A DNA stretch of 64,000 nucleotides, from contig CALLAA010000071.1 of NCBI GenBank assembly GCA_938002955.1, positions 1-64,000 of the forward strand, given 5' to 3'. Made by a program: the position numbers and the translations under genes. This document shows positions 37,256 to 43,359 of the stretch, one piece after another; within the stretch, counting starts at the first letter, position 1, and every line of letters begins with the position of its first letter. The DNA is from an uncultured Acidimicrobiales bacterium (GTDB taxonomy: Bacteria; Actinomycetota; Acidimicrobiia; Acidimicrobiales; SHLQ01). Under the pieces are notes generated by a model. That model did not search any database. It worked only from the letters and a program-made list of their open reading frames with translations, and was not told where the DNA came from.

Positions 37256-37454
37256 TCAGCCGCTCCCCGATCATGTCGCGGCACGTCATCGTCGCGCCGT
37301 CACGGCTGGCGAGGCGTACTACTTCGACCCCGACACTGGCTTCCTCGTGATGACCGAATTGCACCACCTCGCCCGTGGCGAGTGTTGCGGCAATCGCTGT
37401 CGCCACTGCCCGTTCAGGACTGATCCACCATCTGACCTTCGAGGTGAATCGTGA
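37248..37454 (+). CDS. DUF5522-like small Cys-rich protein
   Basis: ATG 37248 overlaps the upstream stop (ATGAGTAA). YYFDPDTGFLVMTELHHLARGECCGNRCRHCPF matches the CCGxxCRHCP family pattern. Confidence 0.82.
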   Translation: MSNQPLPDHVAARHRRAVTAGEAYYFDPDTGFLVMTELHHLARGECCGNRCRHCPFRTDPPSDLRGES

Positions 37455-38928
37455 ACGCCCGCCGCGCTCCCGGGGGCACGTGGACGATCGTGACGATCGT
37501 TCCTGACGCACGCAGTTCTTCAACGACGCGTTCGAGTGCAGCGGCTCCTGAGTAGTCCAGTCGGCCAACGCCGCTGAGGTCGATGTCGACCTGTTCGATC
37601 TCGACATGTTCCGCGAGCAATGTCCGCAATGCCCGCTCGATCTGCGGCACGGCTGCGAACCACAGAACGCCTTGGGGCCGGACGATGAGCTTTTCTGGCG
37701 AAACCTCGTGACTGACGGTCACGGTCATCTCGCGATACAAGTGCACGGCCAAGGCGAGAACGATGCCGACGAGGACTCCGCGCTCGACCCGAGGGGCGAG
37801 CGCGAGGGTGGCGACCAGTGTGCCGATGCCGACGACGGCTTGAGCTGGTGACTCCCGGACCAGTCCAACAAGTGACCCAATATCGATCAGCTTGGCGACC
37901 CCGGTGATGATGAGCGCCCCGAGGACCGCCGTTGGGAGGTTTGCGAGAAGCGGTGTAAGCGGCAGCGCAGCGATCACCACGAGGCCGGTTACTGCACCCG
38001 ACCACGCACTCGACGCTCCCGCTGCGTGATTGAGCGAACTCCGGGAGAACGAGCCCCCGATGGGAAATCCGCCCGACAAGCCCGACGTTAGATTGGCGAC
38101 ACCTTGGCTGATCATCTCCCGGTTGGCGTCCCATGGGGTTCGTTCTGCCGTCGCAAAGACGCGAGCGATCGAGGATGGCTCAGCAAAGCCGATCAGGCCA
38201 ATGAGCAACGCAGCGGGAACGAGCGCCCCCGCACTCGACCATGGGAACGACGCCGAAATGGACAAGAAGCCGCCGGGGAGATCGCCGATCGTCGACCCGG
38301 AGTATCCCGTGATCGAGGAGACGATGACGCCACCGATCACCGCAAACAGCACACCGGGAAAGAGCTTGTGAATCTTTCGACCGCCGAGAACTGCGATGGC
38401 AGTCGCGATTGCGAAGGCGATGCTCGATGCGCTCCAGGAGCCCGGCGAGCTCACGCTCGCAAACGCGTTGGCGAGAACTCCGTCGCTGCCTCCCGCTACG
38501 CCGAGCACCTTGGGGAGCTGGCTTGAGATGATCAAGAACGCGGCGCCCGTCGTGAACCCGGTCAACACCGGATCCGACAACAGGTACGCCACTCCCCCGA
38601 GACGTAGGAGGCCGAGCAGCACTCGGGTCAGGCCAACGAGGAACGCCAGCAGCGCGGCGAGCCGGACGTACTCCGGAGAGAACGGTTCGGCGAGGCCTTC
38701 GAGCGCGCCGTATGTCAGCAATGCGGTTAGCGCCACCGGCCCCGTCTGCAGATACTTCGAGGACACGAAGAGCGCAGCAAGAACCGGTGGCAACGCTGCG
38801 GCGAAGAGACCAGCTTGGGCTGGCACTCCTGCGAGGTCGGCGTAGGCGAGCGCTTGGGGGATGACGATGAATGCGACCGAAGCCCCCGCCACAACGTCGG
38901 AGGAGCTTGGCCCGCGAACGGAGATCAC
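37414..38928 (-). CDS. SulP-family anion transporter with C-terminal STAS domain
   Basis: VAGASVAFIVIPQALAYADLAGVPAQAGLFAA; STAS domain VDIDLSGVGRLDYSGAAALERVVEEL. GTG start. Confidence 0.92.
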   Translation of the reverse strand: MISVRGPSSSDVVAGASVAFIVIPQALAYADLAGVPAQAGLFAAALPPVLAALFVSSKYLQTGPVALTALLTYGALEGLAEPFSPEYVRLAALLAFLVGLTRVLLGLLRLGGVAYLLSDPVLTGFTTGAAFLIISSQLPKVLGVAGGSDGVLANAFASVSSPGSWSASSIAFAIATAIAVLGGRKIHKLFPGVLFAVIGGVIVSSITGYSGSTIGDLPGGFLSISASFPWSSAGALVPAALLIGLIGFAEPSSIARVFATAERTPWDANREMISQGVANLTSGLSGGFPIGGSFSRSSLNHAAGASSAWSGAVTGLVVIAALPLTPLLANLPTAVLGALIITGVAKLIDIGSLVGLVRESPAQAVVGIGTLVATLALAPRVERGVLVGIVLALAVHLYREMTVTVSHEVSPEKLIVRPQGVLWFAAVPQIERALRTLLAEHVEIEQVDIDLSGVGRLDYSGAAALERVVEELRASGTIVTIVHVPPGARRAFTIHLEGQMVDQS

Positions 38929-39392
38929 TTCGACAGGGTCACGAGATCGCGGTGTTCACCGTCGCCCGAGTGTCCTGCACCCCGTTGTTGTCGTTCTCGA
39001 AGATGCAGCCCAATGAAGATTCCGGGGATAGCGATCAGGCTCAACATGGCGCCCGAGGAGAACATCACGAGGGCTGGGGCGGGACACGTTCCGGCGATGG
39101 CCCACCCGATTCCGAAGAGCGCACCGCCCTTGAGGTGATGCGCTTCGGGCTTCGAACGCGAGAGGCGAAGCTCGCCACCGAGCGGTGTCGTGAAGCCCGT
39201 ACGCTCGAGCAGCCAGAGCAACGGCGCAGATACCACGATCGCCGAGGCCATGAACAGGAAGATGTCGGGTTCGTCAAGGCGCAGCATTGCATGGATCGTG
39301 TCGTACTCGTGCAGGTTCATTGCACCGAGCACGCCACCAAACATCGCCCCAAACAGCAGGCCGATCACATTCAACTTCGCCGTGTTGCTCAC
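38925..39392 (-). CDS. YeeE/YedE-family protein (second half)
   Basis: LLFGAMFGGVLGAM, GGALFGIGWAIAGTCPAPALVMFSSGAM. GTG start overlapping the upstream stop. Confidence 0.88.
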   Translation of the reverse strand: MSNTAKLNVIGLLFGAMFGGVLGAMNLHEYDTIHAMLRLDEPDIFLFMASAIVVSAPLLWLLERTGFTTPLGGELRLSRSKPEAHHLKGGALFGIGWAIAGTCPAPALVMFSSGAMLSLIAIPGIFIGLHLRERQQRGAGHSGDGEHRDLVTLSK

Positions 39393-39868
39393 AGGGCACC
39401 GCCGGTTGCGATACGAAGGATGAAGGTCGTCAGGATCGCCGTGGCCATAAAGGTGGCCGTCACTGCAAGGCTCGCCGGGGACCGTTGGGCGGTGCCGCAC
39501 ATTCCGTGACCCGAGGTACATCCGCCGGCGAGCGCTGCTCCGTAACCGAGGAGGATCGCTCCACCCAAAACGAGCGGGACGGTGACGCCGAGCGGGAAGA
39601 CCTCGCGCAGTGCGTCGTATCCCGACCGGACCCCTGCGTCTTCTCGGAACACTCGGGTCACGAGGAGGCCGCCGACGAACAGGCCTACGAAGTACCAGAC
39701 TCGCCACTTGACCACGCCCTCGCTCCGGCGAAACAGTCCGGCCGTTTGGACGTAGGCACCGCTCGCTCCGAGCGGTTGGTTCGCAAGAACGAATAGCCCA
39801 ACGATCAGCAGTCCGAGAATCGGGCCTCCGATAAACCAGGGCAGGCGGTCGGGTAGCAGGTCATACAT
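39389..39868 (-). CDS. YeeE/YedE-family protein (first half)
   Basis: LGGAILLGYGAALAGGCTSGHGMCGTAQRS. Confidence 0.9.
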   Translation of the reverse strand: MYDLLPDRLPWFIGGPILGLLIVGLFVLANQPLGASGAYVQTAGLFRRSEGVVKWRVWYFVGLFVGGLLVTRVFREDAGVRSGYDALREVFPLGVTVPLVLGGAILLGYGAALAGGCTSGHGMCGTAQRSPASLAVTATFMATAILTTFILRIATGGAL

Positions 39869-39898
39869 CGTGGTTCCTTGTCGTACTTCGGGTGGTGA

Positions 39899-41275
39899 CT
39901 ACGCCGGTGCGTGTGCTGCGGTCCATGCGCCGTACCCGCCGAGAAGATCGGAGATGTCGGTGAACCCTGCACCGATCATTCGGCTCGCAGCGATCGATGA
40001 ACGGAAGCCGCCAGCGCAATACACGATCGTGGGCTTCGCGGGGTCGAGCTCACCGAGCCGCTCGTTCAGACGGGTCAATGGAATGACGATCGCGCCGTCG
40101 ACGACGCCGTTCTCGGTTTCGCCGGGCTGGCGAACATCGACGAGCTGGAGGTCGGCGACGTTCTCGATGGCCTCGCGCATCTGCGCCACGGTGACGCGCG
40201 AGTTCCGGGCGACGAGGTCCGGGTTCTGCGACAACGATCGAGCTGGCTCGACGAGGCACCCAATGACGTTGTCGAAGCCAATTCGAGCAAGGCGGACCTT
40301 GGCCTCAAGTTCATGGCCTTCTTCGGTGACCAGAATGATCTCGGCTTCTGGCGACAGGACTCCGCCGGCGAACTCGGCGTATCGACCCGCGAGGCCGATG
40401 TTGATCGATCCAGCCACATGGCCGAGCGCGAACTCATCGGGTGAGCGGGTGTCGAGAACCACGGCACCGTCGGCCTGGCGTGCAACGACGTTAGCGATCG
40501 AGAGAACCTGGGGAGCCGCGTGCTCGTCGAGCAGCGGGCGATTTTGCCGGTTGAGCATCGCGTCGTAGGAGAAGTATCCCGGCGGTGCAGTCTGACCATC
40601 GGTAACCACCTGGATGAACTGTTCCTTGGTCATGTCAGCGACCGCATAGTTGTTGTCGCGTTGTTTTCCGATCGTGCACGAGGTGTCCGACGATAGGTTC
40701 TTTCCACACGACGAGCCTGCGCCATGACCGGGGTACAGAATCGTCTCGTCGGGCAACGTCATGAGCTGAGTATGGAGCGAGTCGTAGAGGTCGCTCGCCA
40801 ATTCTTCGCTCGTCACACCTTTTGACGACAAAAGGTCCGGACGTCCGACATCACCGATGAACATCGTGTCGCCGGTGAGTACGGCGTGCGCGGGGCTATC
40901 AGCGTTTTCGTAGACGACGATGCTGATCGATTCGGGTGTGTGGCCGGGGGTGTGGCGAACCTCGAGCACGACCTCGCCGAGCTCGATTCGTTCGCCATGG
41001 TCGAGCTTGCGAGAGGCGAACTCGGTTTCGGCTTTGCTGCCGTAGGCAATGGTTGCGCCGGTGGCATCGGCGAGTTCGAGGTGGCCGGAGAGAAAGTCGG
41101 CGTGGAAGTGCGTTTCGAGGACGAGTTCGATCGTCATGTTGTGCCCAGTCGCGCTTTCCAGGTACGGGGCGATGTCGCGACGAGGATCGACGACGACGGC
41201 ACGGCCGGTGGTTTCGTCGCCGATGAAGTACGACGCCTGCGACAGGCAGTCGAGGTAGTGCTGTTCGAAGATCAT
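39899..41275 (-). CDS. Metallo-beta-lactamase-fold persulfide dioxygenase (ETHE1/BLH-like) fused to two rhodanese domains
   Basis: THFHADFLSGH, HTPGHTPESISI, LTGDTMFIGDVGRPDL, YPGHGAGSSCG; rhodanese 1 LDTRSPDEFALGHVAGSINI without active Cys; rhodanese 2 TIVYCAGGFRSSIAAS with Cys. Confidence 0.92.
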   Translation of the reverse strand: MIFEQHYLDCLSQASYFIGDETTGRAVVVDPRRDIAPYLESATGHNMTIELVLETHFHADFLSGHLELADATGATIAYGSKAETEFASRKLDHGERIELGEVVLEVRHTPGHTPESISIVVYENADSPAHAVLTGDTMFIGDVGRPDLLSSKGVTSEELASDLYDSLHTQLMTLPDETILYPGHGAGSSCGKNLSSDTSCTIGKQRDNNYAVADMTKEQFIQVVTDGQTAPPGYFSYDAMLNRQNRPLLDEHAAPQVLSIANVVARQADGAVVLDTRSPDEFALGHVAGSINIGLAGRYAEFAGGVLSPEAEIILVTEEGHELEAKVRLARIGFDNVIGCLVEPARSLSQNPDLVARNSRVTVAQMREAIENVADLQLVDVRQPGETENGVVDGAIVIPLTRLNERLGELDPAKPTIVYCAGGFRSSIAASRMIGAGFTDISDLLGGYGAWTAAHAPA

Positions 41276-41342
41276 GAGGGCGAGCCTTTCGTCGGGTGGG
41301 TCACGATACGTCGACTTTATGCCGACCGTCACACTATTGTCC

Positions 41343-41358
41343 AAATGTACGTACATTT
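41343..41358. promoter_or_regulatory. Perfect 16-bp palindrome AAATGTACGTACATTT, candidate operator
   Basis: Exact self-complementarity, located in the divergent promoter between the persulfide dioxygenase (-) and the DUF480 fusion (+). Confidence 0.75.
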
Positions 41359-41458: not shown

Positions 41459-42712
41459 ATGGAACTCGACCTGACCGCCCCAGAGATTCGGGTGCTGTGT
41501 TCGCTGATCGAAAAAGAGCGGACAACACCCGACCAGTACCCGTTGAGTACGAATTCGCTGCGCTCGGCGTGTAACCAAAAGACCAGCCGCGAGCCGGTTA
41601 TGGAGTTGAGCGAGCGTGATGTCGACTCTGCGGTTATGGGCTTGCGTGAACGCGGCCTTGCTCGAAGCGTGAAGCCAACGGGGTCTCGGGCGTGGAAACA
41701 TCGCCATGTTACGAACGAGGTGCTCCCGCTCGACGATGCCGAGATTGCGGTGCTTGCGGTGCTTGGTCTGCGTGATGCCCAGACCCCTGGTGAGCTTCGC
41801 CAGCGTTGTGATCGCATGCATCCATTCGACAGTGTCGATGAGGTCGACTCGACGCTGTCTGCGCTGGCCGCTCGCCCCACTCCCCTGGTTCGCAACCTCG
41901 GCAGGGAACCCGGGCAGAGCCAAGATCGGTGGGTGCACTGCTTGGGCGAGGAAGCAGTTCCGGCGTCGCAGAGCCGCCAGCGAGCGCAGGCGGCGACGTT
42001 TCGTGCGCTTCACGAGTCCGGCTTCTTCGCCATGCCAAATCCGTGGGATAGGGGTTCGGCACGCATGATGCAGGAGGCCGGAGCCCTTGCGCTTGCGACG
42101 ACCAGCGCCGGATTCGGTCGCACGATCGGCAAAGACGATCAGCTCGTGACTCGCGATGAACTCGTCGCCCATGTCGCAGACCTGACGGCGTATATCGACG
42201 TTCCGCTCAACGTCGATAGCGAACGGCTCTTTCCAGAGGCACCCGGCGGCATCGCCAGAACCGTCCAACTTCTCGCCGAGGCTGGCGCGGCGGGCGTTTC
42301 TATCGAGGACTACAACCCCAAGACCTCCTCGATCGACCCACTCGGTGCCGCCACCGAGGCCGTCGCGATCGCGGCCGCCGAGTGCGCCCGCCACGACATT
42401 GTCCTGACGGCTCGCACCGAGAACCATCTCTATGGCATCGAGGACCTCGACGACACGATCACCCGACTCAATAGCTTTCGTGATGCCGGTGCGCTGTGTC
42501 TGTATGCACCCGGCCCGAAGAACCTCGGCGACATCGAGCTTCTCGTCAGCGAGGTCGCCGCTCCACTCAACGTTCTCGCGTTCCCGGACGGACCGTCCAA
42601 CAGCGAACTTGCCGCGGCCGGCGTTCGGCGCGCATCGAGTGGATCGATCGTGTTCAACGCTGCAGCAAAAGCAGCGCGCCAGTCGACGATCGACTTTCTC
42701 GCTACTGTCTGA
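41459..42712 (+). CDS. DUF480 (YceH-like winged helix) fused to isocitrate lyase/PEP mutase-family domain
   Basis: N-terminal LTAPEIRVLCSLIEKERTTPDQYPLSTNSLRSACNQKTSREPVMELSERDV...; C-terminal ALHESGFFAMPNPWDRGSARMMQEAGALALATTSAGFG...AGAAGVSIEDYN...ALCLYAPG. One uninterrupted 417-aa frame. Confidence 0.87.
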   Translation: MELDLTAPEIRVLCSLIEKERTTPDQYPLSTNSLRSACNQKTSREPVMELSERDVDSAVMGLRERGLARSVKPTGSRAWKHRHVTNEVLPLDDAEIAVLAVLGLRDAQTPGELRQRCDRMHPFDSVDEVDSTLSALAARPTPLVRNLGREPGQSQDRWVHCLGEEAVPASQSRQRAQAATFRALHESGFFAMPNPWDRGSARMMQEAGALALATTSAGFGRTIGKDDQLVTRDELVAHVADLTAYIDVPLNVDSERLFPEAPGGIARTVQLLAEAGAAGVSIEDYNPKTSSIDPLGAATEAVAIAAAECARHDIVLTARTENHLYGIEDLDDTITRLNSFRDAGALCLYAPGPKNLGDIELLVSEVAAPLNVLAFPDGPSNSELAAAGVRRASSGSIVFNAAAKAARQSTIDFLATV

Positions 42713-42714
42713 AC

Positions 42715-43359
42715 ATGACAACGACCGAACCGGTACATCTCACCGTCTACTCAGACTTTCTTTGACCGTGGTGCTACGTCGCGACCGTGCGTCTCGACAA
42801 GTTGGCCGAGCAGGTCGGCGACCGCATCACAATGGAGTGGAAATCTTTCCTCCTTCGCGTCGAGCCGAAGACCGGTGATCGCGACAAGTTCATCGAGTAC
42901 ACCAAGAGCTGGCTCAATCCTGCTGAACAAGAGCCAGATGCGGCATTCACCGTCTGGGCGAGTGACGAAGGACAACCTCCCTCAAGCGTTCCAGCCCAGG
43001 TCGCGCACAAGGCGGTCCGCGCGTTCGCTCCCGACCGGGCAGACGACTATCACCACCGGCTGCTCACGGCGTACTTCACCGAGAACCGCAACATCGGCGA
43101 TAGCGACGTGCTGCTCGACCTCGCCGAGGACATCGGTATCGACCGAGACGGCCTCGCGACCGTCGCTCGCGAAAACCACGACGCCTTCGCAAAGATGGTG
43201 ATCGATGAGCACAACAGCGCTGTTCAGAGCAACGTCACCGCAGTACCAACGGTTGTGTTTGAACACGCCTTTGCCGTCCCGGGTGCACAACCCGTTGAAA
43301 CGTACGAGCGTCTCATCGAACGTATAGAAGAGAAGAAGGGACCAGCCGGAGAGGCGTGA
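42715..43359 (+). CDS. Predicted selenoprotein: DsbA/FrnE-like thioredoxin-fold oxidoreductase with UPWC active site (in-frame TGA at 42763..42765 read as Sec)
   Basis: ATG 42715 reads MTTTEPVHLTVYSDFL-[TGA]-PWCYVATVRLDKLAEQVGDRITMEWKSFLLRVEP... in one frame. TGA replaces the first Cys of CPWC. The ORF track lists the parts as 42496..42765 and 42787..43359, both in frame 1. Confidence 0.82.
42778..42798 (+). promoter_or_regulatory. Candidate bacterial SECIS hairpin
   Basis: GUCGCGAC - CGUGC - GUCUCGAC: 8-bp stem with one C.U mismatch, 5-nt apical loop with G at position 2 followed by U, apical loop 20 nt after the UGA. Confidence 0.65.

Follow-up and report, generated by a model that had tools for sequence, protein, structure and literature searches.

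Does an in-frame TGA codon at the active site of a DsbA/FrnE-like gene end translation, or is it read as selenocysteine (Sec)? The question is raised by a locus in the window, a stretch of 64,000 nucleotides from the contig of an uncultured Acidimicrobiales bacterium. Here, a frame that begins at ATG 42715 and ends at a natural stop (TGA, 43357-43359) is interrupted only once, by the TGA at 42763-42765 (codon 17), giving the translation MTTTEPVHLTVYSDFL-U-PWCYVATVRLDK... from its ATG. We conclude, with a probability of roughly 96%, that the gene encodes a real cytosolic selenoprotein of the DsbA/FrnE family in which UGA 17 is decoded as Sec via a SECIS element. A first-pass annotation of the locus had proposed a probable unannotated selenoprotein, and this proposal is now supported by conservation of the TGA, by a SECIS hairpin and by the presence of the Sec machinery.

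An interrupted frame encoding a single DsbA domain

The Pfam DSBA profile (PF01323) matches the translation straight across the TGA, from residue 9 to residue 201, at 92 bits (E = 5e-26; gathering cut-off 25.6 bits), and so both flanks of the codon belong to one domain. The translation, together with this match on both sides, bears out the earlier description of 42715-43359 as intact save for one TGA. Two further points of that description also held: alignment with FrnE places the TGA at the first Cys of CPWC, and the second Cys, at TGC 42772-42774, is kept as the invariant Cys20 (Table 1). As had likewise been anticipated, a mechanical ORF caller reports only a truncated frame at the locus, GTG 42787-43359, of 190 aa. 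When the selenoprotein was searched against NCBIfam, only weak matches were returned and none reached its model cut-off; annotation pipelines therefore probably truncate the gene at the active site. A motif scan of the window found 23 further TGA sites in UxxC, UxC or CxxU settings.

Table 1. Features of the selenoprotein locus, in window coordinates.
Feature	Position	Strand	Details
DsbA/FrnE-like selenoprotein CDS	42715..43359	+	214 aa, Sec at residue 17; PF01323 over residues 9-201
TGA codon, read as Sec17, opening the U-P-W-C active site	42763..42765	+	All 109 close homologues have TGA; counterpart of the first Cys in FrnE CPWC
Cys20 (TGC), resolving Cys of UPWC, sole Cys in the protein	42772..42774	+	Invariant in alignments
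Bacterial SECIS hairpin, 21 nt	42778..42798	+	Stem 42778-42785 with 42791-42798, loop 42786-42790 (CGTGC); compensatory changes, synonymous constraint
Pro178, cis-Pro position of thioredoxin-fold oxidoreductases	43246..43248	+	Invariant in 25 homologues
Upstream gene, DUF480 and PEP_mutase in one 417-aa frame	41459..42712	+	Stop 2 nt before the selenoprotein ATG

The TGA codon is conserved across close homologues

In 198 genomes of the same order, 29 homologues stand out as matches far above the rest (E < 1e-49), and TGA is found at codon 17 in 29/29. These order-level homologues show 40-65% identity, the window itself aside, and continue in frame for about 190-213 codons after the TGA; one of them is scored with a second TGA, close to where its match ends. 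We also searched named species genomes with a query that began downstream of the TGA and thus gave Cys and Sec forms an equal chance of being found. The best 80 of 201 confirmed loci, nearly all from Acidimicrobiales/Acidimicrobiia MAGs, carry TGA in 80/80 cases. The two sets, which overlap in species, make up the 109 close homologues discussed here.

The residues that flank the TGA are among the most conserved in the alignment, with S13, D14, L16, P18, W19 and C20 invariant. The column itself holds TGA family-wide in the close homologues (109/109) and Cys in remoter relatives, the two states that the first-pass annotation had named for it. Scattered other stops, which it had listed as a sign against a selenoprotein, do not occur in the close orthologues; TGA is present in all of them and the rest of the frame is open.

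A hairpin under synonymous constraint follows the TGA

A check for a SECIS element downstream of the TGA had been proposed, and a hairpin with compensatory changes is indeed found there. Its 8-bp stem encloses the 5-nt loop CGUGC and comprises alignment columns 16-23 paired with 29-36, numbered from the U of UGA. RNAalifold alone yields a core of seven pairs; the eight-pair stem was written by hand from single-sequence folds. Across 29 sequences, standard pairs fill 93.5% of the stem cells, as against 29-44% for slid partners. Two of the pairs have changed on both sides, from G-C to C-G in five sequences and from A-U to G-C in eight. Both the covariation score and the count of both-side changes surpass all 500 shuffles; the tally of pairs that show them does not.

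Because the hairpin region encodes conserved residues, we added a shuffling of synonymous codons, with usage taken gene-wide from 67 non-redundant homologues. The native sequences form 7.43/8 pairs vs 5.18 (sd 0.11) after shuffling, with a hairpin energy of -8.9 kcal/mol vs -3.7 (sd 0.26); kinship among the 67 homologues inflates the nominal significance of these differences, but there is no doubt about where the constraint lies. Only codons 5-10 past the TGA, which match those of the hairpin, are strongly biased; this bias is absent from codons 11-16 in the same 67 homologues. Arg within the hairpin codons is written CGT or CGC in 67/67, and Val5 is GTC in 59/67. Remoter Sec subfamilies likewise fold a hairpin in the same region. 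Judged by its sequence, the conserved hairpin directly after the TGA is a bacterial SECIS element. Lying within the coding sequence, this covarying RNA element shapes which codons, and perhaps which residues, are used in the helix of the active site.

Selenocysteine machinery in the genome and the order

All four Sec components named in the first-pass annotation, selA, selB, selD and tRNA-Sec, are present in the window's own genome (G000; roughly 90% complete, with 3.93 Mb spread over 270 contigs). The selB gene (C145:61045-62103) scores above its curated cut-off and is adjoined by a complete selA (E 1e-115), and a tRNA-Sec with a TCA anticodon (C48:24725-24816) reaches 64.5 bits vs a gathering score of 47. 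The selD match is also above its cut-off and sits within a 728-aa frame that has an extra N-terminal part. With all of these components and the conserved hairpin observed, we infer that the UGA is decoded as Sec. By eye, the N-terminal part of this SelD (L017, G000:C145:20731-21624) looks like a pyridine-nucleotide oxidoreductase, and its active site has Cys, not Sec. A search of the genome for Sec-type formate dehydrogenase gave only matches that run without an internal stop and score below the cut-off of the family.

Across the 198 order genomes, selA occurs in 28/29 genomes with the gene vs 91/169 without it (Fisher p = 2.6e-6, in a test that takes no account of shared ancestry), and about 60% of the sampled order genomes have selA. 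One gene-bearing genome, G170 (83% complete), has neither selA nor an above-threshold tRNA-Sec, probably as a result of incompleteness. A member of the window's Sec clade was also seen in a genome of another family (f77) that has no above-threshold tRNA-Sec (L153, G372:C359); this is probably a misbinned contig.

Alternative readings of the TGA codon

A nonsense mutation in a pseudogene, or a sequencing or assembly error for TGC, would take only a single-base change from TGC to TGA, and the window's assembly is a draft in 270 contigs. The first-pass annotation had allowed for both. However, the same codon recurs in 109/109 homologous loci drawn from many independent assemblies, with the remaining frame open in all of them, and the conserved hairpin behind it also argues against mutation or error; this cross-species conservation refutes the idea and leaves it a negligible chance. 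If the TGA were instead a real stop followed by a restart at GTG 42787, the product would be a truncated 190-aa protein without the active site, just the call expected from a standard ORF caller. Yet the residues flanking the codon on either side are highly conserved and are taken in by the DSBA domain, and a restart would not hold the TGA itself fixed, making this reading very improbable.

A full-length product would likewise arise if the TGA were reassigned, or if a near-cognate tRNA inserted another amino acid such as Trp in place of Sec. Against this, TGA serves as the ordinary stop of both the selenoprotein gene and its upstream neighbour, the genome encodes a dedicated tRNA-Sec along with SelA and SelB, and the alternative residue at the TGA column in relatives is Cys. 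The SECIS after the TGA argues against reassignment as well, and we give such a reading almost no weight. These comparisons leave practically no room for a nonsense mutation, a sequencing error or a reassigned code.

Fold and proposed mechanism of the Sec17 enzyme

The AlphaFold2 model of the selenoprotein has a DsbA-like fold (mean pLDDT 94.4, pTM 0.90) in which a strand (7-13) leads into UPWC (17-20) and a helix extends over 18-37. Two features of the DsbA family are present, a redox motif that opens the first helix and the invariant Pro of a VP[TA] motif; by analogy with the family, Pro178 would be in the cis state. Its top PDB matches are Deinococcus radiodurans FrnE and SCO1869. No signal peptide is evident by eye at the N-terminus, which suggests a cytosolic location.

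We propose that SelB and tRNA-Sec(UCA) would decode the UGA at codon 17, directed by the SECIS just downstream within the coding sequence, and that Sec17-Pro-Trp-Cys20, where the first long helix begins, would form the redox centre. If the chemistry resembles that of other thioredoxin-fold enzymes, the Sec17 selenolate would attack an electrophile such as the disulfide of a substrate, with Cys20 then resolving the intermediate. Since Cys20 is the sole Cys and the C-terminal CX4C of FrnE is missing, an outside thiol system, for example thioredoxin or mycothiol, would presumably be needed to reduce the oxidised selenenylsulfide again. We infer that the catalytic role is that of a cytosolic thiol/selenol oxidoreductase.

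Relation to FrnE and to known selenoprotein families

The best PDB match by both sequence and structure, D. radiodurans FrnE (DR_0659; PDB 5CNW and others), has the same fold and is cytosolic by prediction. Its CPWC aligns with the UPWC of the window's protein, at about 25% identity, but has Cys where the latter has Sec. D. radiodurans FrnE also carries a C-terminal CX4C for regeneration, whereas the window's protein has none. This motif occurs in many, not all, FrnE proteins (PMC8945050), and because the FrnE of Streptomyces roseofulvus is also without it, CX4C is not strictly defining for FrnE. D. radiodurans FrnE is reported to be a cytosolic disulfide reductase/isomerase that is important for cadmium and diamide tolerance (PMC8945050); by analogy, the window's protein may have a comparable role. 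The next-best solved relative, SCO1869 of S. coelicolor (PDB 3GL5), is an actinobacterial, probable DsbA oxidoreductase, but it shares about 21% identity by structure alignment and its PDB entry does not call it a selenoprotein.

DsbA-like selenoproteins with UxxC (PF01323/COG2761) have been described before: Sargasso Sea data gave the first report (PMC1088965, 2005), the family was extended with Global Ocean Sampling data, in which DsbA 1 is marked as marine-enriched (PMC2398784, 2008), and a DsbA-like selenoprotein was counted in 41 organisms (PMC5029168, 2016). A 2026 inventory of selenoproteins lists 'DsbA-like protein form 1' (PMC13188914). The definition of form 1 given there, PF01323 with UxxC, fits the window's protein, and the likeness extends to Sec at the N-terminal redox position and to a predicted bacterial SECIS. 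The difference, on a comparison by description only, is that the passages on this family in these four papers do not mention Acidimicrobiia, whereas the subfamily found here is order-wide with Sec in 109/109. As DsbA-like UxxC proteins of PF01323 have been listed as a selenoprotein family since 2005, the window's gene falls within a class of DsbA-like selenoproteins that was known already. Our literature search found no paper joining Acidimicrobi- with selenoprotein and selenocysteine; with no NCBIfam model at cut-off either, the subfamily appears undescribed and is likely mis-annotated. What appears to be new, with published families compared by description, is an order-wide, apparently Sec-only Acidimicrobiales subfamily that NCBIfam does not cover, in an order where the gene is widespread.

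Sec and Cys forms in the wider family

The DNA pattern SD[FY]x-TGA-PWC occurs at 10 sites in 9/397 genomes of the phylum (0 in the reversed control). A second Sec lineage is found in another family of the phylum (f86; L154-L160), all of whose genomes have an above-threshold tRNA-Sec. Further TGA subfamilies within the same order read SDYL-U-PWCHLARAR, SDYI-U-PFC, SDFI-U-PWCYLAWAR and SDYL-U-PWCYVGLDR. Altogether, the order holds no fewer than four additional DsbA-like subfamilies with TGA, and another family of the phylum holds one (L128-L131, L133, L136, L137, L139, L140, L154-L160, L175-L179).

A pattern permitting either TGA or Cys matched 76 sites in 397 order genomes, 69 with TGA and 7 with TGC (control 0). 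All seven TGC sites fall in a sister subfamily of the SDYL-x-PWCYVGLDR/Q type, and none of the seven lies in the window's clade. Among the Cys-form genomes, G061 and G160 are without selA, and G146 and G007 have it. The Cys gene of G146 (L168, G146:C27:8058-8085) retains the SECIS-like hairpin found in its Sec sisters, as would be expected had this selA-positive genome switched from Sec to Cys recently.

The window's clade forms one cluster on trees. At the deep branches, where SH-aLRT is about 80-88, the trees are compatible with one or more origins of Sec across the subfamilies and with differing numbers of gains and losses. The subfamily is apparently both order-wide and Sec-only. That it is obligate for Sec, with Sec never replaced by Cys even though a sister subfamily of the order has moved between the two, is a tentative idea that we consider rather doubtful. 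If true, the enzyme would need selenium chemistry and could be one reason that the order keeps its Sec machinery, even though neither SelD nor any of the formate-dehydrogenase-like proteins encoded by the window's genome is a selenoprotein. A Sec-only clade beside a Sec/Cys sister clade within one order would provide a natural experiment on the retention and loss of selenium.

Gene neighbourhood

The gap of 2 nt to the upstream stop makes translational coupling with the DUF480/PEP_mutase gene possible. This gene adjoins the selenoprotein gene in only about 10/81 loci, and frames of similar length (median 432 aa) were seen near the gene in about 10 related loci. Across the order, no conserved gene partners travel with the selenoprotein gene, and many of the neighbour clusters are shadow ORFs. 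Farther upstream in the window, on the minus strand, lies a group of sulfur genes (37414-41356) that comprises a persulfide-dioxygenase-like metallo-beta-lactamase with rhodanese domains, a YeeE/YedE-type transport protein (PF04143) and a SulP sulfate permease.
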